Source: Lachnospiraceae bacterium (GTDB taxonomy: Bacteria > Bacillota > Clostridia > Lachnospirales > Lachnospiraceae). From it: DNA of 48,638 nucleotides. Location: assembly GCA_016282915.1 (NCBI GenBank), contig JAEELW010000056.1, forward strand, positions 1-48,638. The letters are read 5' to 3'. Below the pieces are notes generated by a model that saw only the letters and a list, made by a program, of their open reading frames with translations, was not told where the DNA came from and ran no database searches. Positions 3,062 to 25,380 of the stretch are shown one piece after another. The number at the start of each line of letters is the position of its first letter. The first letter of the stretch is position 1. The position numbers and the translations under genes are program-made.

Positions 3062-4096
3062 ATGGATCAGAATTTCAATAACCCTTACGGCAATCAGTTT
3101 GGCGGGCAGAATCAGTTCAATAACCAGTACGGCGGGCAGAATCAGTTCAATGCGCAGTACGGAAACCAGTATAACAATGCGTATGCGGATCAGAATCCGT
3201 ATGCCCAGGCCAATGTGCAGTACAATAATCAGTACAGCCAGTTCAATGCGCAGTATAACAATCAGTACGCTCAGTTTAATGCGCAGAATGCCGGCTTTAA
3301 CGCACAGAATGCGCAGTTTGCCAATCAGTACGGAGCCGGCTTCGGCATGCAGGGCTTTCAGCCCGGAGCAGGTATGGGGCAGGCAATGCCGGGGCGGAGC
3401 GGCGGTCCCACTTCTTTCTCGGGGATCGTGAGCGAGGTCACGGAGACCCTGCAGCAGAAGGTGGTTGCAAAGTCGTTCCTTTATATGGTGGTGGCGCTGA
3501 TCGTAACGGCGATCGCAGCGTTTGCGGCACCCCAGGCCATGGCGAAGATCCTTATCACTCATCCCTCCGCGATCTTCGGACTCGTGGGGCTGGAGCTGGT
3601 GATCGTGATCGTTTCCAATATCGCGATCAAAAAGAATAATGCGGCGCTGACCGTAGTTCTCTATACCGTATATTCCTTCCTGACGGGCGCTACCCTCGGC
3701 GTGGTCTTCTGGGCCTATCAGCTGGGTTCCGTCGTCGCCATCTTCTTGATGACCTCGGCGATCTTTGCGATCATGGCCGTATACGGAATGGTCACCAAAA
3801 GAGACCTTTCGTCCCTCGGGAGCATCCTGCTCATGTCCATACTCGGGATCATCATCGTATCCACGGTGAATATCCTGTTCCTTCACAGCGAAGGCCTGGA
3901 GCTGGCGATCTCCTATCTCGGGGTTGCGATCTTTATCGGCTTTACGGCGTACGATACGCAGAAGATCAAACAGAAAGTCGCCTATGCGGATTCTGCGAAT
4001 ACGGAGGTGCTGGCACTTTCGGGAGCGTTCCAGCTCTACCTTGACTTTATCAATATCTTTATCCGCCTGCTCAGCATCATGGGGCGCAGGAAATAA
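3062..4096 (+). CDS. Bax inhibitor-1 family membrane protein with Q/N-rich N-terminal tail
   Basis: 344 residues. Residues 1 to about 110 are low-complexity, built from loose repeats of the type FN(N/A)QY, QNQFNAQYGNQYNN, nearly free of charge and very rich in Gln, Asn, Tyr and Phe. From about residue 125 there are seven hydrophobic segments of the BI-1/YccA/YetJ family. Both conserved acidic residues of the family's pH-gated calcium leak are present: the Asp in TAYDTQKI and the Asp in YLDFINIF. The protein ends with basic GRRK. The family conducts Ca2+ or proton-linked leak in the inner membrane. The extra tail would sit in the cytosol if the topology is as in YetJ. GGGAGG precedes the ATG. 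It is monocistronic by its own promoter and hairpin. Confidence 0.88.
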   Translation: MDQNFNNPYGNQFGGQNQFNNQYGGQNQFNAQYGNQYNNAYADQNPYAQANVQYNNQYSQFNAQYNNQYAQFNAQNAGFNAQNAQFANQYGAGFGMQGFQPGAGMGQAMPGRSGGPTSFSGIVSEVTETLQQKVVAKSFLYMVVALIVTAIAAFAAPQAMAKILITHPSAIFGLVGLELVIVIVSNIAIKKNNAALTVVLYTVYSFLTGATLGVVFWAYQLGSVVAIFLMTSAIFAIMAVYGMVTKRDLSSLGSILLMSILGIIIVSTVNILFLHSEGLELAISYLGVAIFIGFTAYDTQKIKQKVAYADSANTEVLALSGAFQLYLDFINIFIRLLSIMGRRK

Positions 4097-4173
4097 GAGA
4101 AATACTGTCGGAACGGTTTTGCCTGTGATCCGGCGCTCAGGCCGGGCGGCAGGAGAAGCTTAAAAAAGATATT

Positions 4174-4200
4174 CAGGGCCGGCGGCTTTCCGCCGGCCTG
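4174..4200 (+). terminator. Strong GC hairpin after the BI-1 gene
   Basis: CAGG-GCCGGCGG pairs with CCGCCGGC-CTG across a CTTT loop, followed by the weak T-rich stretch ATTTAT. It lies between the BI-1 stop and the hflX start, so it may terminate the first gene or be an RNA-stabilising hairpin. Confidence 0.6.
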
Positions 4201-4227
4201 ATTTATACGAAGGGGAAAGATCCTTAA

Positions 4228-5529
4228 ATGAATGAAACGGAAAATAAGAACTTAACGGTGATCGCCGGGCTGCGTACGGATGAGACGGAAGAAGAATTCG
4301 GGCATGCCATGGACGAGCTGAAAAGCCTGTGCGAAGCCTGTGAGCTGGAAGTGGCCGGGGTCCTGACGCAGTCCCTGCCGCACCCGGACAAAGCGACCTG
4401 GATCGGTTCGGGCAAGGCGGAAGAGCTGAAGATGACTGTCCTGGCACTGGATGCCGCCTATGTGGTCTGTCTGGGAAATCTCGCGCCCTCACCGATGAAG
4501 AATCTGCAGAAGATCGTGGGCTGTCCGGTGTGGGACCGTACACAGCTGATCTTGGAGATCTTTTCGCGGCGGGCGCGTACACGCGAAGCACGCCTGCAGG
4601 TGGAATGCGCCTATCTGCAGTACATGATGCCGCGTCTGAGCGGGATGTGGCAGCATCTGGGGAGACAGAGCGGCGGCGGCGGAAGCCGGGCAAACAAGGG
4701 TGAAGGCGAAAAGCAGATCGAGCTGGATAAACGCCAGATCTCCCACAGGATCACCGAGCTGAAGAAGGAACTTTCGCAGATCGAACAGACGCGGGATGTG
4801 CAGCGGCAGGGGCGCTCCAGGGACGGCTATCCCAATGTGGCGCTGGCAGGCTATACCAATGCGGGCAAGTCCTCATTGATGAACCTGCTCCTCGCCATGG
4901 GCAGACGCTCGCAGGAAAAGACCGAGGAGAAAAAGGTATTTGAGGAGGACATGCTCTTTGCTACGCTGGACACCTCGGTACGCAAGATTGCCATCGCGGG
5001 GCGGAAGCCTTTTCTTTTATCCGATACGGTCGGGTTCATCGAAAACATCCCCCACGATCTGATCAAGGCTTTCCGTTCGACCCTGGCGGAGCTGCGTTAT
5101 GCCGATGTCATCCTGATCGTGCTGGATTCCTCCGATCCGCACCATCCGATGCACAGGAAGGTCACTGAAGAGACCCTGTCCGAACTGGGAGCACTGACGG
5201 TTCCCAGGATCTATGTTTATAACAAGGCGGATCTGCGTGACGATGGGAGGACCGTAAAAAACGGCCCCGGAAATGAGGCCGTTTATATCTCGGCGCGTAC
5301 AGGCTACGGGATCGATGAACTTCTGGATGCACTGCAGCGGATCTTCCGTGCCGGAAACCGCCGGATCGAAGTGACGATCCCTTATTCTGCCGGGGATCTG
5401 CTGAACCGTATCCATAAGGAGGCCGAGCTGATCGTCGAGGAGCACCGTCAGGACGGGACCTATATAGAAGCAGACTGCCCGGCCGCATTGGCCGAGCAGC
5501 TGCTGGCGAGGTGTGCAGGCACGCCTTAA
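4228..5529 (+). CDS. hflX: Ribosome-associated GTPase HflX
   Basis: 433 residues, the usual length for HflX. The N-terminal HflX domain contains the glycine-rich linker GGGGSRANKGEGEKQIELD and the coiled region after it. The G domain starts near residue 205: G1 GYTNAGKSS, the switch I Thr in MLFATLDTS, G3 DTVGFIENIP and G4 NKAD. HflX binds 50S subunits and 70S ribosomes and splits stalled ribosomes under stress in a GTP-dependent way. The ATG at 4228 follows an AGGGG element about 12 nt upstream. It ends tail to tail with the minus-strand radical SAM gene, the two stop codons overlapping within 5526-5529. Confidence 0.95.
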   Translation: MNETENKNLTVIAGLRTDETEEEFGHAMDELKSLCEACELEVAGVLTQSLPHPDKATWIGSGKAEELKMTVLALDAAYVVCLGNLAPSPMKNLQKIVGCPVWDRTQLILEIFSRRARTREARLQVECAYLQYMMPRLSGMWQHLGRQSGGGGSRANKGEGEKQIELDKRQISHRITELKKELSQIEQTRDVQRQGRSRDGYPNVALAGYTNAGKSSLMNLLLAMGRRSQEKTEEKKVFEEDMLFATLDTSVRKIAIAGRKPFLLSDTVGFIENIPHDLIKAFRSTLAELRYADVILIVLDSSDPHHPMHRKVTEETLSELGALTVPRIYVYNKADLRDDGRTVKNGPGNEAVYISARTGYGIDELLDALQRIFRAGNRRIEVTIPYSAGDLLNRIHKEAELIVEEHRQDGTYIEADCPAALAEQLLARCAGTP

Positions 5530-7337
5530 TCTTTGTTTAATACGTAGTCGATGATCTCCCAGTGGTCAAAGGCCAGATCCTCTTTTTTGAGGGTTTTGAG
5601 TTCTACCCAGCTTGCATAGATGGCGTCGCTGTTTGCCACCGGCTTTACCGCATTTTCATCCAGACAGACGCTGTAGGCTACGCTCACGACCCAGCCGCGG
5701 GGGTCTCTGCCTTTGGTGGAGGTGACTTTGACCAGATCCTTTTCTTTGATATCCACGGAAACGGAGGTTTCTTCCAGCAGTTCCCGTGCAGCGGCATATT
5801 CGAGGGTTTCATCTTCCGGCATATAGAAGCCGCCGGGAAGAGCCAGTTTGTTCACGAAGGGATGCTCCGCGCGGCTGATCAGGAGCAGCTTTGTCTTATC
5901 ACGGTTAAAGATCAGCAGATCCACTGCGACGGAAGGAGCGTCATATTTCTTCCGGTCATATTTTTCAAGGTAGATATCTTCTCCCTTTTTGTCATTCAGC
6001 CAGCGGTCGGACAGCGTGAACATTTCCTTCACGCTCCTCTCGCTGTAGAAGAGCGGGATGATGCCGTAGAGGTGGGCGGCGCCGTAATCCGTCAGCATGA
6101 AGGTATCTTCGTTGACGAATTCCATCAGGCTGTTGTTTTCCAGAAAAGCGATCTGCGTGGCGTAGACATCGCGGAAATCCTCTCCGAACCTGGCTTTGTA
6201 GGCCTTCATCGAGATGAAGCCGAAGTAGAACATCACGGAGATGGCTTTGGCCCGCACTTCGTCGATGGGCATATCCGCGATATCATTGATCGGAAGGATG
6301 CCTTTTTCGACCGCTTCAAAATACTTTTCCAGCTTATGATCCACACAGCCCAGATTATAGGCAAGGTAATTGCCGACAAAGGACTGGGCGCCCAGGCCGA
6401 AGCCCACATAGGAGGTAGCGTCGATGACCCGCTTCGTGAGGTAGGACGAGGTGCCCATATCGCCCGGGATGCGGCTGAAGGTGTTCTTGCCGTTATTCGC
6501 CTCATAGCCGGCTTCTTTTAATAAGCGGTAGGCGATCTCGTACTGGCGGTTGACTTTGTAGAGGGTCACGCCCTGGGATTCCGCTTCCAGCTTGGTGCCT
6601 TTGTAGCGGTTACGGTAGAGGGTGATGAATTCCGGACCGAGGGCGATGGTGTAGCGGATGGTATTGGCAAAATCCTCATCGCTCTGGTTCAGGAAACCGT
6701 ACATCAGATCCACGTTGAGGCGGTCGAAACCTGCCTTGCGGATATTTTCCACAGCCTTTTCATAAATGCTCTTCGAACCTTCCCTTCCCAGCTCGGACAG
6801 GAGCTTTTCGGATACGGTCTGAAAGCCCATGGAGATGCGGTTGTAGCCCATTTCGCGTATCGCTTTGATCTTCTCGGGATCATTGGCGGCGATCACGGGA
6901 GTGGTCTCGATGCTCATATAGATGCCGTCTTCGAGAGCGAAGCGCTTGATGGAATCCGTGATCGCTTTCAGATTTTCGACCGAAAGGTAAGCGGGAGTTC
7001 CGCCGCCGAGATCGTAGCCGGCGATGGGCTTGTCGCCGATCATTTCGCGGTAGAGCTCGATCTCTTTCAGCAGATGTTCCACATAGCGGTCGGGATCGTC
7101 TTCAGCGGGCTGATCGAGCACCACATATTCGCAGAAACGGCAGCGGGCCTGGCAGAAGGGGATGTGCACATAAAGGCAGAGTTCCTTTTGGGTTTCGATG
7201 TTTTTCTTTACGGTCTTAAGGATCTGCGCCTCGTCATGCAGTTCATAGGCGGCCAGGGAATTGGGCCTAAGCGGATAGGCGGTGTTGCAATAGTGATGGA
7301 AACGGATACCTCGGTCAAAGATCTCTCTGCATTTCAT
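5526..7337 (-). CDS. HemW/HutW-like radical SAM enzyme fused to a Nudix hydrolase
   Basis: 603 residues from ATG 7337. This start has AGGAGG eight nt upstream; the longer frame up to 7433 runs through the promoter and is rejected. The radical SAM cluster motif is CQARCRFC (C62, C66, C69) in the context YVHIPFC, followed by DLGGGTPAYL and SMGFQTVSE as in coproporphyrinogen oxidase-like HemW/HutW proteins. From about residue 465 a Nudix domain follows, with PGGFYMPEDETLEYAAAREL and EET at about residues 500-525; the one-residue longer loop resembles NrtR/ADP-ribose pyrophosphatase members. HemW-type proteins carry haem; HutW/ChuW relatives open haem anaerobically. What the Nudix half does in this pairing is unknown to me. 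Cytosolic, single-gene transcript. Confidence 0.82.
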   Translation of the reverse strand: MKCREIFDRGIRFHHYCNTAYPLRPNSLAAYELHDEAQILKTVKKNIETQKELCLYVHIPFCQARCRFCEYVVLDQPAEDDPDRYVEHLLKEIELYREMIGDKPIAGYDLGGGTPAYLSVENLKAITDSIKRFALEDGIYMSIETTPVIAANDPEKIKAIREMGYNRISMGFQTVSEKLLSELGREGSKSIYEKAVENIRKAGFDRLNVDLMYGFLNQSDEDFANTIRYTIALGPEFITLYRNRYKGTKLEAESQGVTLYKVNRQYEIAYRLLKEAGYEANNGKNTFSRIPGDMGTSSYLTKRVIDATSYVGFGLGAQSFVGNYLAYNLGCVDHKLEKYFEAVEKGILPINDIADMPIDEVRAKAISVMFYFGFISMKAYKARFGEDFRDVYATQIAFLENNSLMEFVNEDTFMLTDYGAAHLYGIIPLFYSERSVKEMFTLSDRWLNDKKGEDIYLEKYDRKKYDAPSVAVDLLIFNRDKTKLLLISRAEHPFVNKLALPGGFYMPEDETLEYAAARELLEETSVSVDIKEKDLVKVTSTKGRDPRGWVVSVAYSVCLDENAVKPVANSDAIYASWVELKTLKKEDLAFDHWEIIDYVLNKD

Positions 7338-7404
7338 ATGCTTTACCTCCTGTAAATACCGGCGCTCCTCTGGAGAGCGGCTTCTGTTCTCTCTGTCTGC
7401 GTTG

Positions 7405-7433
7405 ATATTATCATAATGATAATATGAAGTCAA
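7405..7433 (-). promoter_or_regulatory. Promoter overlapped by a 21-bp perfect palindrome
   Basis: On the minus strand TTGACT (7433-7428), a 17-nt spacer and TAATAT (7410-7405) form a good sigma-A promoter for the radical SAM-Nudix gene. A perfect palindrome with 10-bp arms and a single central base occupies 7405-7425, covering the -10 box and most of the spacer. Its core TTATCAT-A-ATGATAA resembles the 7-1-7 operators of the Fur/PerR/Zur family, differing from a PerR box at one base per half. Position over the -10 suggests repression. Confidence 0.7.
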
Positions 7434-7499
7434 GAGCTTTTTTACAGATATCGGAGAAAACCTGCAATGACGGCGGAAGTGGAATAAAAGCTGGAGATA

Positions 7500-7508
7500 T
7501 GGTATACT
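7500..7508 (+). promoter_or_regulatory. Extended -10 promoter for the M13 peptidase gene
   Basis: TG at 7500-7501, one base, then TATACT at 7503-7508, with no good -35. The start codon is at 7641, leaving a leader of about 125 nt that contains a weak hairpin (TGCCTGC and GCAGGCA). With the divergent promoter at 7405-7433 this accounts for the 303-bp gap. Confidence 0.5.
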
Positions 7509-7640
7509 GTCCGGGGCGGTTTTTTGCCTGCATGCTGTCGTTATGAACCGGCAGGCATACGTTCCGATAATCCGCTTACACCGGATCGCAGGAGACGGAT
7601 CAGGATGTCAGTATCCGGATAATAAGGAGAGTATTCATAT

Positions 7641-9644
7641 ATGAAGAATAAAATATTTCAGCGTATCTCACATAAACTGGCGCTTTTCCTGAGCGTGACG
7701 CTGCTGGCCGGCTGCGGGAATGCACAGCAGGGCGGGGATCCCACACCGACGGCGGTACAGGTCAGTGAGAATGCCGCAACTCCCACGGAAGCACCGGAAC
7801 CGACCGAGGCAGCGCCTGCAAAGATCAATGACGACGGCAGGCCCATCGCCGACTACTATGAATATGTAAACGGCGAATGGCTGAAGGAGCAGGAGGGGAA
7901 AGAGCAGCGTAACGGCTGGAGGGAAGATAAGCAGCAGATCTATGACCGCGTAAAGGACATCCTGGAGAATACCGATATCACTTCTCTTTCCGAAGAGGAC
8001 GGGCTTTACAGGCTCATAATGCTCTACCGTGAGATAACGGATACGGAAGATGCCTCGCAGCGGATCGGGAGCATACGTGCGTATCTCAAACCCATCAGCG
8101 CCGTGACGGGCCTGAACGATCTTTATAAACTGTATGTGGATCCGAGGTATTCCGTCTATAATTATCTGCTGCGTTTTGAAGTAATGCCCGATGATTACGG
8201 TTACAATGAGCAGGAGTTTTCACCGCTCCGGTATTCGGATACTTTACTGGATATGCAGCTTGTGATCAGCGAAGGGAAGGATACGGTGGAGAGGGAGCAG
8301 TTCCTGGCTTATGCGGATGCGCTCGGCTTTTCCGAGCAGCGTATGTTGGAAATGATCTCGAACGCCATGAAGATCGCGGAGCTCATCGACGGATATTACG
8401 ATGATGAGAACGTGGAGAGCGGGCTGTTTTTTGCGGATGCGGAGGATCTGGATGCGCAGGGAGTGACGGTCCCGGTCATCGAGATCCTTGAGCAGCAGAA
8501 GGCGCTGGCCAGATCCAAGGATTTCCTGGCGCAGAGCAATGTATATGATACGCTGAAAAAACTCTATGTGCCGGAAAATGTGCCGGCCCTAAAGGATTTT
8601 TATCTGATCTGTGCACTCAACGCGATGCATGCGGTCTCGGCTTTCAGTACGGAAGGGGAGGCCCCCGATATCGATCTGTCGGATTTTGTCACTTCTATGT
8701 ATATGAATTATGCGGTAGATCTGATGGCACGGGAATACATGAAGCGCTATATGGGGGACGGCGTCTATGAAAGCGCGGAGGCTCTGGTGGATGAGCTCCG
8801 GAAGGAAGTGTTTGAGCGGGTGAAGGGATCGGACTGGCTCGGCAAAGAGTCGCAGTCGGCGGTAACGGGGAAGTTTGTGAGCATGTCCTGTTTCCTCGGG
8901 AACAACGGCCATGTAAATGAATTTAAGGATCTGCAGATCACAGGTGACAGCGTCGAGGATCTTCTGTCCTTTGGCATAGCGTGCAGGAAATTCCGTAATC
9001 TGCAGCTTTTTTATGAAGATGAATCCCGGGTGCCTTTCAACGAGGATTCGATCAATATCAACGCCTATTACAATCCGGCTTTTAATGCATATGTGGTCGG
9101 CGCGGGCGTACTCTGTGATCCTCACTGCGCGGCGGATGCGCCCTATGAGGAAAGGCTCGGTTATCTCGGGGCGCTTGTCGCACATGAAATGGGGCATGGC
9201 GTGGATCCCAAAGGGATCGTATATGACAGGGAAGGATATTACGAGCCCTGGCTGAGCGAGGATGAACAGAAGGAATATGACGGCAGGATCCAAAAGATCA
9301 TTGAATACTTTGACGGCATGGAGATCGAATACGGAAGAAAGCTGGACGGTGAGCTTGTGAAAGAGGAGAGCTTTGCGGATCTTTTTTCCATAAAGCTCTG
9401 CCTGCAGCTTCTGGAAAAGAGGGAAGACGCCGATTATGACCTTTTCTTCCGTGCGTTTGCAGAGTATCACAGACAGTATGTGACGGAAGCGAATGTCGAC
9501 GGGATCGCTGCGGACGAACACCTTCCCGGAAGACAGAGGATCAACTGCATCCTTGCGCAGTTTGATAAATTCTATGAAGTCTATGAGATCGATGAAAGCA
9601 GTCCGTACTATGTTCCCGCAGAGGAAAGGCTGAAGGCGTTCTGA
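7641..9644 (+). CDS. M13 (neprilysin/PepO) family zinc metallopeptidase lipoprotein
   Basis: 667 residues. A lipoprotein signal peptide ends in the lipobox LLAGC with the acylated Cys at 25, followed by a Thr/Pro/Glu-rich linker to about residue 65. The catalytic part has the M13 substrate-loop motif NAYYNPAFNAY, the zinc motif HEMGH (515-519) and the third ligand Glu in EESFADLF, where the usual Asn of ENxAD is Ser. M13 enzymes cleave short peptides at the N side of hydrophobic residues; anchored outside the membrane it could process peptides or signalling molecules. AAGGAGA precedes the ATG. The response regulator follows after 43 bp, so read-through into the peptide-sensing module is possible. 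Confidence 0.92.
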   Translation: MKNKIFQRISHKLALFLSVTLLAGCGNAQQGGDPTPTAVQVSENAATPTEAPEPTEAAPAKINDDGRPIADYYEYVNGEWLKEQEGKEQRNGWREDKQQIYDRVKDILENTDITSLSEEDGLYRLIMLYREITDTEDASQRIGSIRAYLKPISAVTGLNDLYKLYVDPRYSVYNYLLRFEVMPDDYGYNEQEFSPLRYSDTLLDMQLVISEGKDTVEREQFLAYADALGFSEQRMLEMISNAMKIAELIDGYYDDENVESGLFFADAEDLDAQGVTVPVIEILEQQKALARSKDFLAQSNVYDTLKKLYVPENVPALKDFYLICALNAMHAVSAFSTEGEAPDIDLSDFVTSMYMNYAVDLMAREYMKRYMGDGVYESAEALVDELRKEVFERVKGSDWLGKESQSAVTGKFVSMSCFLGNNGHVNEFKDLQITGDSVEDLLSFGIACRKFRNLQLFYEDESRVPFNEDSININAYYNPAFNAYVVGAGVLCDPHCAADAPYEERLGYLGALVAHEMGHGVDPKGIVYDREGYYEPWLSEDEQKEYDGRIQKIIEYFDGMEIEYGRKLDGELVKEESFADLFSIKLCLQLLEKREDADYDLFFRAFAEYHRQYVTEANVDGIAADEHLPGRQRINCILAQFDKFYEVYEIDESSPYYVPAEERLKAF

Positions 9645-22338: not shown

Positions 22339-23697
22339 ATGGACGGGATAAGGATATACAGGGGAATAAACCAGATCGGCGGGATCGTCACCGAGTTTCG
22401 GAAAGGCGGGCACCGCATACTGATAGATTTCGGAGCAAATCTTCCGGGAACGGAAAATGCCGAGCTGGAAGATGATGCCATGGTGAGGCAGGTATTTGCA
22501 GATAAAGACCCGGTTACGGATGCCGTTCTGTTTACGCATTATCACGGGGATCATGTCGGGCTGAGAAACAGGATACCCCAGGGGATCGAAATGTACGCCG
22601 GCGCAACAGCCTTAAAGATCATGAAACTGATCGCCGAAGGCGTTGATCATGTTAAGAGAAAGAAAGGCCTTACGGAGGAATATGATCTTCCGGTACTGGA
22701 AAGGATAAAGCCTTATTGGAAGATCGGTGAGGCGAAGGATTTTCATGGGATAAAAGTAACACCGCTTGTCTGTGATCATTCCGCTCTGGATGCTTATATG
22801 TTCATCATCGAGCTGAACGGCAAGCGTATTCTGTATACAGGGGATTTCAGGGCACATGGGATCCCGGGGGAAGAGACCTTTGAGAAGCTTATAAAAACAA
22901 AGGTGGGGAAAACGGATATACTGATCACGGAAGGGACGATGGTTTCCAGGCTTTGTGAGGAGGCGTCAAACGGGATCCGGACAGAGGCCGAACTTGCCAG
23001 GAAGGCGGCGGAGATCTTTGAGGCCCATAAGGAAAACGTTGTTCTTGTGTCTTCAACCAATATAGACAGCGTGATGAGCTTTTATAATTCGGTTCCGTCC
23101 GATAAAGCTTTTCTGTGCGATATCTATCAGGCAAAGGTGATGAGGATCGCGATCGAAGCCAGACACAGGTATTTCCCGGGATCATACAGTTACCGCGGCA
23201 ACATATATGTCTTATGCCCGGATGAAAACGAATACTGCATGGGAGAGCTCAGGAAATATGTGATACCGCATACAAAGCGGCATCCGTTTAAAATGGCGAG
23301 AGCCGGACTTTATTCCGAAAAAGGCTTCGTAATGCTTGCCAGGGTAAACCGTGATCCCGGATCGGAGACAGGAAGATTTGAAAAAAGACTTGCGCAGATG
23401 ACGGACCCGCATATCATATATTCGATGTGGACGGGATATCTGAAAGACGGAAAAGCAGAGGATCCTGCGATCGTAAGCTTTCTTGACGGACGGGATGATG
23501 CCGGGCATATGGATGTGATCCATACAAGTGGACACGCATATGTGGAGGATCTGAAAAAGCTGATGGATATGACGGAGCCGGAGGTGATCATCCCGATGCA
23601 TACGGAGAGCGCAGGGAATTTCAGGGAACTTGAACAGTTCCGGGATCATAAAGATAAGATAGAAGTGTGCAGACCGGGCGAGGTGTACGGAATATGA
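22339..23697 (+). CDS. RNase J-like MBL/beta-CASP nuclease
   Basis: 452 residues. Metallo-beta-lactamase motifs in order: Asp in ILIDFGANL, HYHGDH (67-72), a His in VCDHSALDAYM and Asp in YTGDFRAHG. Beta-CASP motifs follow: acidic Glu in ITEGT, then TSGHAYVEDLKKLM and IIPMHTE near the end, which correspond to the SGHA and PIHGE segments of RNase J. RNase J has about 555 residues; the C-terminal dimer domain is missing here. A metal-dependent endo- or 5' exonuclease acting on RNA is the natural prediction. The upstream ribosome site is poor (AAAGGAG at about 18 nt). The stop overlaps the next start as ATGA. Base composition looks more A-rich than in the neighbours (impression, not counted). 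Confidence 0.85.
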   Translation: MDGIRIYRGINQIGGIVTEFRKGGHRILIDFGANLPGTENAELEDDAMVRQVFADKDPVTDAVLFTHYHGDHVGLRNRIPQGIEMYAGATALKIMKLIAEGVDHVKRKKGLTEEYDLPVLERIKPYWKIGEAKDFHGIKVTPLVCDHSALDAYMFIIELNGKRILYTGDFRAHGIPGEETFEKLIKTKVGKTDILITEGTMVSRLCEEASNGIRTEAELARKAAEIFEAHKENVVLVSSTNIDSVMSFYNSVPSDKAFLCDIYQAKVMRIAIEARHRYFPGSYSYRGNIYVLCPDENEYCMGELRKYVIPHTKRHPFKMARAGLYSEKGFVMLARVNRDPGSETGRFEKRLAQMTDPHIIYSMWTGYLKDGKAEDPAIVSFLDGRDDAGHMDVIHTSGHAYVEDLKKLMDMTEPEVIIPMHTESAGNFRELEQFRDHKDKIEVCRPGEVYGI

Positions 23698-24614
23698 GCG
23701 GGCACAAAAAAGAGCTGCGGATCGATGACGGAAAAGTCGACAGCTTTTATGCGATGGTGCGCAAGTGGACCTATAATGATTATATTACGCCGAAGGCAAA
23801 GGCAGAGATCCTTGTAGATATGCTCATTTCGGAGTTTATCGAAGACATATTCAACAGTAAGGCTTTTAATGACTGCATCGGGAGGAAGGATACGGCAAAG
23901 CTGATCGCAAAAGAGTTTCCGATAAAGGGATATACGGAAGAGAAAGCAAAGAAGGACGGCTACAGAGTCTGCAGGGACAGTGGGATCATTAACAGTCCGG
24001 CGGTGGATTATCTTGTAAAGAAGGGGAATAAGCTTTATCTGGTCGAACTGAAAACCAATTCCGGCAGCTTTCATGCAGGACAGCTTTTCCGGATGATCAT
24101 GGCGAAAAGAAGCGGCCCGGATAAGATCTTTGCACATTATGCGGAAGTGCTGCAGCATACGGACAGCAAACGGAAATATCAATCCCAGCTGAAGCGCATG
24201 TGGGAGGTCGTGGCAGACGCTGCTGTCCCGTTTGGGATAGAAGATCTGAACAGGTCGAAAGCGGATAAAGTGAACGATGAAAGACTGTCGGATCTGAAAA
24301 GGCATTTCAGGGGATTTTCGGAAAGCTTCCGTGACGGAGCGGATATCGTATATCTTACCCTGGATCAGTGCCCGGATAAACTGTCGGGGAAGTTTTTGTA
24401 TGATGGTCCTGAGGGTGAACTGAAGATAGAACTCAGGGGTAGGGGTGATACGGAAAGTACGGGAGCGGTAAGAAAATATGCGTATTCCTGTGCCCGGGAA
24501 CAGGAGCTCTTTTATACCGTGTCTATGAACAGGATCAAGCTGTACGGAGATAAAAAAGCATTATGGTCCAAAGTGAGAAAAATCCTGGATAAGCTGCCGG
24601 TGGATGAGATATAA
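23694..24614 (+). CDS. PD-(D/E)XK nuclease-like protein coupled to the beta-CASP gene
   Basis: 306 residues from ATG 23694, which overlaps the upstream stop by four bases; the longer frame begins inside the previous gene. I do not recognise a named family. The core looks like a PD-(D/E)XK nuclease: SPAVDYLV (D105), then YLVELKT (E118, K120) and a Gln in the following helix GQLFRM (Q130), the spacing known from RecB-like nucleases. The N-terminus is helical with several acidic residues. A C-terminal third (from about 200) contains a mixed strand/helix region with VYLTLDQCPDKL. Tight coupling to an RNase J-like protein suggests a two-component nucleic acid processing or defence pair, which is inference. 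Confidence 0.55.
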   Translation: MSGHKKELRIDDGKVDSFYAMVRKWTYNDYITPKAKAEILVDMLISEFIEDIFNSKAFNDCIGRKDTAKLIAKEFPIKGYTEEKAKKDGYRVCRDSGIINSPAVDYLVKKGNKLYLVELKTNSGSFHAGQLFRMIMAKRSGPDKIFAHYAEVLQHTDSKRKYQSQLKRMWEVVADAAVPFGIEDLNRSKADKVNDERLSDLKRHFRGFSESFRDGADIVYLTLDQCPDKLSGKFLYDGPEGELKIELRGRGDTESTGAVRKYAYSCAREQELFYTVSMNRIKLYGDKKALWSKVRKILDKLPVDEI

Positions 24615-25299: not shown

Positions 25300-25313
25300 G
25301 AACAGTGCAGACA

Positions 25314-25380
25314 GTGAGGACAGGGGGACAGTCCCCGTGTCCTCACAGTGAGGACGGGGGGACTGTCCCCCTGTCCTCAA
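25314..25380 (+). repeat. Two adjacent GC-rich palindromic repeats (REPIN-like)
   Basis: Unit A 25314-25346 and unit B 25348-25380 both start GTGAGGAC, contain a central GGGGAC-N-GTCCCC palindrome and end in GTCCTCA. Each can fold as a stem with outer arm GAGGACAG/CTGTCCTC and inner arm GGGGAC/GTCCCC. The same family recurs at 34631-34700. They fill the gap between the flavin reductase and the DHFR fusion gene. Confidence 0.8.

Follow-up and report, generated by a model that had tools for sequence, protein, structure and literature searches.

Organization of the gene pair

The window, the whole analysed stretch of 48,638 bp from a Lachnospiraceae bacterium (contig JAEELW010000056.1), carries on its plus strand two adjacent genes that had been put forward as a candidate undescribed two-gene system. 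Gene 1 (22339..23697, plus strand) codes for a metallo-beta-lactamase (MBL) beta-CASP protein of 452 aa, the conserved core of the module described here, and gene 2 (23694..24614, plus strand) for a predicted PD-(D/E)XK-type nuclease of 306 aa, counted from the ATG. Both genes lie where they had been predicted and share four bases: stop and start codon overlap in an ATGA at 23694..23697 (plus strand), which on the basis of the sequence indicates translational coupling. The expected enrichment in A was observed, with 30.1 % for the pair versus 25.0 % upstream and 26.2 % downstream. The GC content of the pair was 0.47-0.49, that of the window elsewhere mostly 0.50-0.57, and equally low values occurred in a few other kilobases, e.g., at 31-33 kb. 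Repeats had been assigned to the surrounding accessory stretch. They are present, but between 20000 and 27500 consist mainly of a 34-bp tandem or palindromic element at 25311-25378, outside the gene pair. Together, the two 34-bp copies of this element make up a palindrome, near-perfect and with arms of 32 bp, that lies just 3' of the flavin reductase gene. The genes flanking the pair are rare in the genus, the flavin reductase being present in 1 and the esterase in 6 of 35 genomes, own genome included; because of this rarity a test for an empty site beside the window copy failed.

The beta-CASP protein

The metal-binding motifs reported for gene 1 were all present. In an alignment of 12 sequences H67, H69, D71 and H72 were invariant in MBL motif 2, HYHGDH (residues 67-72; 22537..22554, plus strand), as were S397, G398, H399 and A400 in the stretch TSGHAYVEDL (23524..23553, plus strand), which we take to be beta-CASP motif B with His399, and P419, H421 and T422 at MHTE (23596..23607, plus strand), beta-CASP motif C with His421. 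The downstream metal-binding residues H147 and D169 were likewise invariant. Pfam matches over the cut-off were obtained for Lactamase_B_2 (39.3 bits) and RMMBL (28.4 bits, cut-off 21.6). With its MBL and beta-CASP motifs, i.e., HxHxDH, the histidines at motifs B and C, and RMMBL, the protein resembles RNase J and CPSF73. The identity with RNase J was rejected: gene 1 reached 44 bits at a TIGR00649 cut-off of 400, and the cell has a proper RNase J of 617.9 bits encoded elsewhere in the same genome (C39). Unlike RNase J, gene 1 is paired with a second nuclease, and the RMMBL match extends to residue 424 in a protein of 452, so that the RNase J C-terminal domain finds no room, in agreement with the original prediction. 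RNase J chains in the PDB have mostly 553-574 aa; chains of 470 aa called RNase J also exist. The nearest PDB relatives of the gene 1 family, searched with profile A2, were 2AZ4 (119.7 bits) and RNase J 7PCR (63.7 bits). The NCBIfam model 6A-MBL was rejected with 12.5 bits versus a cut-off of 220, and PADLOC offered no confident match, the best being LmuA with 11.8 bits (E 0.023).

The predicted nuclease

The predicted active-site core of gene 2, D105...E118-x-K120...Q130 (24006..24083, plus strand), was invariant in 19 of 19 aligned sequences, the window protein and 18 relatives including some near-copies, at a mean column identity of 24 %. Variation at D105, E118 or K120, which would have spoken against a nuclease, was not seen. 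The complete set of invariant positions comprised M1, D29, E38, K73, E74, D105, Y115, V117, E118, L119, K120, T121, Q130 and Y220. This set contains acidic residues upstream of the D...E-x-K...Q pattern. Gene 2 had been described as assignable to no family, and indeed no match over cut-off, neither to a named nuclease family nor to a non-nuclease one, was found in Pfam, NCBIfam, PADLOC, PHROGs or the PDB sequences; the matches were weak and at chance level. Those to NERD (13.9 bits for the window protein, Pfam cut-off 22.1) and PDDEXK_4 (18.9 bits for the relative L025, cut-off 22.3) lie over the D...ExK region and in this resemble gene 2, but with scores under the cut-offs both assignments were rejected. 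A PDB search with the gene 2 profile A3 returned nothing significant (best E 0.033), and PADLOC had no match. The partner nucleases of seven relatives reached at best 13.5 bits (PDC-S02, E 0.0077) against the defence library, and five further ones had no confident match in PADLOC-DB 2.0.0 or NCBIfam 20.0.

Conservation of the pair

Relatives of gene 2 were searched by a pattern scan with alignment A1 in one genome per species for 84,980 species. This revealed 21 confirmed loci, affiliated to the Lachnospiraceae, Oscillospiraceae and Selenomonadaceae where the record named a family. In 16 of the 21, the near-copies L043, L044 and L046 included, an MBL gene was adjacent or fused. The MBL gene came first in eight loci (L030, L032, L038, L040, L043-L046), the nuclease gene in six (L036, L037, L042, L047-L049), and in L034 (Lachnospiraceae; fusion at 6977-9193) and L039 (Oscillospiraceae) both were fused in a single open reading frame (ORF). 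In L035 the MBL gene was 2 kb from the nuclease gene, and L050 was cut by a contig end. The four-base overlap recurred in G034, G027 and G003, and in reverse order in G029. A lack of conserved adjacency, named beforehand as grounds against the pair, was thus not borne out.

With the own genome counted each time, searches with the MBL protein or its profile yielded relatives in 14 of 144 related genomes, in 19 of 392 at the level of the order and in 9 of 398 at that of the phylum; the MBL query L087 matched 14 plasmid records. Ten of these were examined (H1, H3-H11). H2 repeats the match in another record of Rhizobium phaseoli, and H12-H14 were left out, as was a Methanothermobacter record. One of two phage records (H16) was examined. 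Among 44 non-redundant loci found with the MBL as query, window excluded, a PD-(D/E)XK-type gene was adjacent or fused in 31 and absent in 10; the three at contig edges (L024, L026, L028) were set aside as unjudgeable. The paired loci belonged to Bacillota genomes and Pseudomonadota plasmids. Pairing status was assigned by hand on a table of regular expression matches to the motif. At 90 % identity the MBL rows formed 59 clusters, 43 positive for the expression, 2 fusions, 13 negative and 1 at an edge, with the split gene L091 counted twice; three false positives (L026, L060, L098) were removed by hand, and a looser expression also matched an AAA protein. The motif was present in 39 of 361 control ORFs (10.8 %), taken from a simple longest-ORF caller with spurious frames among them, hence in about 20 % of the loci one of the two neighbours should carry it by chance alone. 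Against this background the 31 paired loci correspond to a binomial p of 5e-14, with relatedness ignored.

Two of the ten loci without an adjacent partner had a PD-(D/E)XK-type gene further off, about 630 bp away in L095 and one gene away in L091. In L098, a Prevotella plasmid and likewise negative, the next gene after that for the MBL codes for a metallophosphatase. Another of the ten, L100, holds the gene for EF2904, whose structure is the nearest one solved; the printed stretches of 2AZ4 match L100 and L101 exactly. L100 (OL539428, an E. coli plasmid record) and L101 (the record of Enterococcus phage Efs 1-1-1) share 11.2-kb stretches with 99.3 % identity, both with the EF2904 gene, thus Enterococcus faecalis DNA seems to be present in both records.

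Partner groups and nuclease exchange

The partner genes fell into nine sequence groups, F1 with 18 members, F2 with 16, F3 with 6, F4 with 4, F5 with 2, and four singles. F1 is the group of the window, and three of its members had no adjacent MBL gene. The D and the E-x-K were kept in F1 to F4. In profile comparisons F1 and F2 aligned exactly at the D...ExK core (probability 77 %) and the single F8 was linked to F3 (97 %). F1 and F3 could not be matched in this way, and we therefore make no claim that all partners share an origin. For the single F9 (L096, a second neighbour) there was a motif match only, and PDB searches with the profiles A6 and A7 yielded nothing useful. The MBL tree, a quick one in which 15 of 53 inner branches are drawn open, was built without the short or broken L024, L029, L037, L091 and L092; on it the five largest partner groups required 11 changes (F8 counted as F3). 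The minimum possible is 4 and the mean after shuffling was 21.3; thus partners appear partly inherited and partly exchanged. Judged from these sequences, one conserved MBL family is combined with several PD-(D/E)XK-type partners that can replace one another, gene 2 among them. A two-gene system is consequently too narrow a description of the locus, while the part of the original prediction that called it undescribed stood within the libraries searched.

Exchange was observed in place between close relatives. G440 and G459 are collinear, with 94.6 % identity through a WYL regulator gene and most of the MBL gene; the identity breaks off 128 bp upstream of the stop codon of the MBL gene (in G440) and resumes at 98.7 % in the next gene. 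Between these conserved flanks one genome has an F2 nuclease (250 aa) and the other an F4 nuclease (331 aa). The genomes G291 and G351 have 91 % of bases in common over the WYL and MBL genes, and G273 about 82 % with either of them; the nucleases differ in each comparison. The end of the MBL changed together with the nuclease. Identities of core and tail, the tail being the last 50 residues (23545..23694, plus strand, in gene 1), a proposed docking tail, were compared in 33 pairs of relatives: L076 and L077 had 96 % in the core and 46 % in the tail, L081-L083 84-89 % and 38-40 %. Pairs with alike nucleases kept both, with 90 % and 80 % (L018/L019), 84 % and 68 % (L047/L048) and 75 % and 72 % (L086/L088). 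The ratio of tail to core identity tracked the identity of the nucleases with a Spearman coefficient of 0.46 (p 0.0065; the 33 pairs are non-independent). A crossover inside the tail explains this co-change as well as co-evolution does.

The window pair fits into this pattern. Its MBL is 66-67 % identical to the MBLs of G034, G027 and G001, its nuclease only 26-31 % to the nucleases of the same genomes. In the nuclease tree the window copy, a long branch, was placed with nucleases of Selenomonadaceae, and a clade with the nucleases of the closest kin of its MBL was rejected by the approximately unbiased test (p 1.35e-6). On this phylogenetic evidence the window pair is a mosaic, with a nuclease foreign to the lineage of its partner.

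Regulatory genes recurred near the module. Among the genes within 7 kb at 59 loci, a set without deduplication or control that includes some nuclease-only loci, WYL-type regulators were present in 11 and members of a helix-turn-helix (HTH) family in 11; in many relatives the gene immediately upstream is that of the WYL-type regulator. A SpoVK/CbbX-like AAA protein with an N-terminal extension was encoded in 8 loci, and another AAA protein likewise in 8.

Comparison with known systems

No match over cut-off in PADLOC-DB 2.0.0, NCBIfam 20.0, Pfam or PHROGs named the pair, for gene 1 these matches were to broad MBL families only, and no such pair was found in the literature on beta-CASP, MBL-fold, WYL, PD-(D/E)XK and EF2904 proteins, in which subscription papers were mostly outside reach. 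The nearest solved relative of the MBL subfamily is EF2904 of Enterococcus faecalis (PDB 2AZ4), a beta-CASP protein with the annotation hypothetical. Unlike the paired MBLs, the EF2904 gene (L100) is annotated inside a row of ABC-transporter genes and its neighbours are without the PD-(D/E)XK motif; EF2904 roots outside the paired MBL family, on a long and unsure branch. In the WYL-type regulator immediately upstream, many relatives resemble defence operons under WYL regulation such as BREX with BrxR. The present loci differ from these in having two nucleases as effectors, and in the window no regulator accompanies the pair. Cas14 of the type VII CRISPR system, like gene 1, is of the beta-CASP nuclease type and serves as effector nuclease in immunity, according to PMC10910872. 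The assignment of gene 1 to Cas14 was rejected with 18.1 bits versus a cut-off of 800 and with 452 aa versus 612 model positions; cas genes were not recognised beside the window pair by eye, no cas-directed search having been made. In PMC11090510 an MBL fold is named in a figure key.

Possible function

Adjacency, coupling and fusion of the two genes, conserved catalytic residues in both products, the exchange of partners together with the MBL tail and frequent WYL, HTH and AAA+ neighbours characterise these loci. We consider it probable, with some reservation, that the pair represents a mobile nuclease-pair module of a conserved beta-CASP MBL and an interchangeable PD-(D/E)XK nuclease, most likely serving defence; as judged from sequence comparison, the role is probably directed against phages or plasmids. 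In modular defence systems a nuclease is exchanged under a fixed regulator and core. The two proteins may form a complex through the variable C-terminal tail of the MBL. The MBL part would cut or trim RNA, as the histidine at motif C, presumably a marker of RNA-type enzymes, suggests, and the PD-(D/E)XK part would cut DNA. The regulator could keep the operon silent and release it when a phage infects, a plasmid enters or DNA is damaged, and an exchange of the nuclease might alter the target or allow an escape from phage inhibitors. Such a course of events would make a defence against phages or other mobile elements the most likely purpose. If so, the defence libraries searched lack this immune or conflict module, which would join two nuclease folds in a combination not described in the literature found. 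Its logic would be directly testable on the natural swaps in place, with the same regulator and MBL and different nucleases in near-identical genomes. A more far-reaching version can be offered tentatively: the MBL could be a chassis that takes different PD-(D/E)XK heads via a co-exchanged tail, as part of an immune system so far undescribed, which would occur in the genomes of Bacillota and on plasmids of Pseudomonadota, with cassette swaps in place and often WYL or HTH control. The chassis alone was also found on a Bacteroidota plasmid. The machinery of replication could be what this system monitors, given the DnaA-like, DnaB and PolC-like genes beside several copies.

Several observations weigh against a defence module. 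Neither a regulator nor an AAA gene lies beside the pair in the window, and none of the recurrent neighbour families of the relatives was found there, with up to four members per family compared. Ten of the 41 assessable gene 1 loci are without an adjacent partner, and nucleases without an adjacent MBL occurred in L031, L033 and L041: in L031 the nuclease gene follows an AAA gene and the genome is devoid of MBL genes; such genes are present at other places in the genome of L033, and that of L041 has an RNase J-like match only. The window nuclease forms a long branch in its tree. Plasmids, phages and viral contigs contained no relative of gene 2, thus a phage or plasmid home for this gene was rejected, and phages contained no relative of the window MBL; hence a direct phage link is missing. 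When 150 of the 165 neighbour ORFs were scanned with PADLOC, without a control, an enrichment of known defence genes near the module was not shown, and therefore a location in known defence islands is not claimed. Among the 25 of 74 families listed, the commonest hits were generic (WYL 5, PDC-S01 4), and single strong ones were mad6 and PD-T4-6.

The pair might instead be a housekeeping-like module of mobile elements for RNA maturation, RNA decay or DNA repair and take no part in immunity. Transcripts would then be trimmed or broken down by the MBL, and the PD-(D/E)XK protein would act on DNA ends so that the element can replicate or be maintained. This would suit the replication genes or their paralogues that adjoin the module at several loci, i.e., a DnaA-like AAA+ protein, a full-length DnaB, a PolC-like piece and DnaX (pCY186), and the MBL family is, EF2904 apart, closest to RNA-processing beta-CASP enzymes. 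The repeated exchange of the nuclease alone and the WYL and HTH regulators fit a conflict better, however, and the module is as patchy as the MBL counts in related, order and phylum genomes indicate, so that we regard such housekeeping as unlikely. Less likely still is a toxin-control pair that stabilises its carrier element, with a toxic PD-(D/E)XK nuclease restrained, or its trigger destroyed, by the MBL together with the regulator. Tight coupling, the small operon and the plasmid location of some relatives are consistent with it, as is an MBL tail that varies with the partner like an antitoxin contact; yet the conserved MBL keeps all its nuclease motifs and is not a small variable binding protein, and the variable gene order, MBL first or second, and the fusions are unusual for toxin and antitoxin. 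That the two genes merely travel together by chance in gene-dense accessory DNA is very improbable. The partnerless loci and the background of the motif search could be read this way, but two fusions, the four-base overlap at several loci, adjacency in both Bacillota and Pseudomonadota, and 31 paired loci out of 41 versus an expected 20 % argue for a functional link.

Neighbouring genes

Besides the regulators, the 59 loci contained a small protein with a GIFW motif, of about 125-165 aa and without Pfam or NCBIfam match in the members scanned, near the module in 7 Bacillota loci; a similar protein occurred in 4 Pseudomonadota loci, the likeness between the two phyla being judged by eye. GIFW genes are located at L093:4516-4992, L095:4558-4953, L097:6256-6630, L103:4552-4995, L037:4042-4473, L047:9206-9703, L048:9331-9750 and L107:7210-7593. 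ADP-ribosylglycohydrolases and metallophosphatases were each counted in 4 of the loci. ADP-ribosylglycohydrolase genes lie within a few kb of the module at L037:11570-12547, L038:3814-4773, L041:4614-5579, L030:2233-3174 and L071:1878-2966. In L071, by eye, this gene is placed directly after the MBL gene, where the nuclease is expected, and a metallophosphatase gene is found directly 3' of the MBL gene in Cereibacter and Prevotella. L041 also contains a CRISPR-like array (L041:303-1233), in which 14 repeats follow each other at a spacing of 66-70 bp, about 2.3 kb from the orphan nuclease gene at 3549-4532.

Relatives of replication proteins near several copies comprised the AAA+ part of DnaA (matching residues 3-167 of 370), a PolC-like piece, a full-length DnaB and an annotated DnaX, the latter on pCY186; replication-related genes are at L104:11871-12980, L106:12192-13160, L108:4708-6081 (minus strand) and L099:7504-8709. 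On plasmids, the partner-bearing Rhizobium phaseoli copy has restriction-modification genes nearby, with an Eco57I methylase, a GIY-YIG gene and MobF in its surroundings; the Cereibacter copy, also with a partner, is near Tn3, TniB and TniQ genes, and the Ochrobactrum copy near an annotated PD-(D/E)XK gene and UvrD. The partnerless MBL copy of Sphingomonas NIC1 is near a recombinase and IS21, that of Prevotella near a DUF262 gene with WYL. Among neighbours of no known motor role, the gene at L036:11418-12194 codes for a FliG C-terminal domain (46.8 bits; the PDB match was weak, E 0.017), and look-alikes by eye are at L035:8968-9831 and L072:2678-3151.

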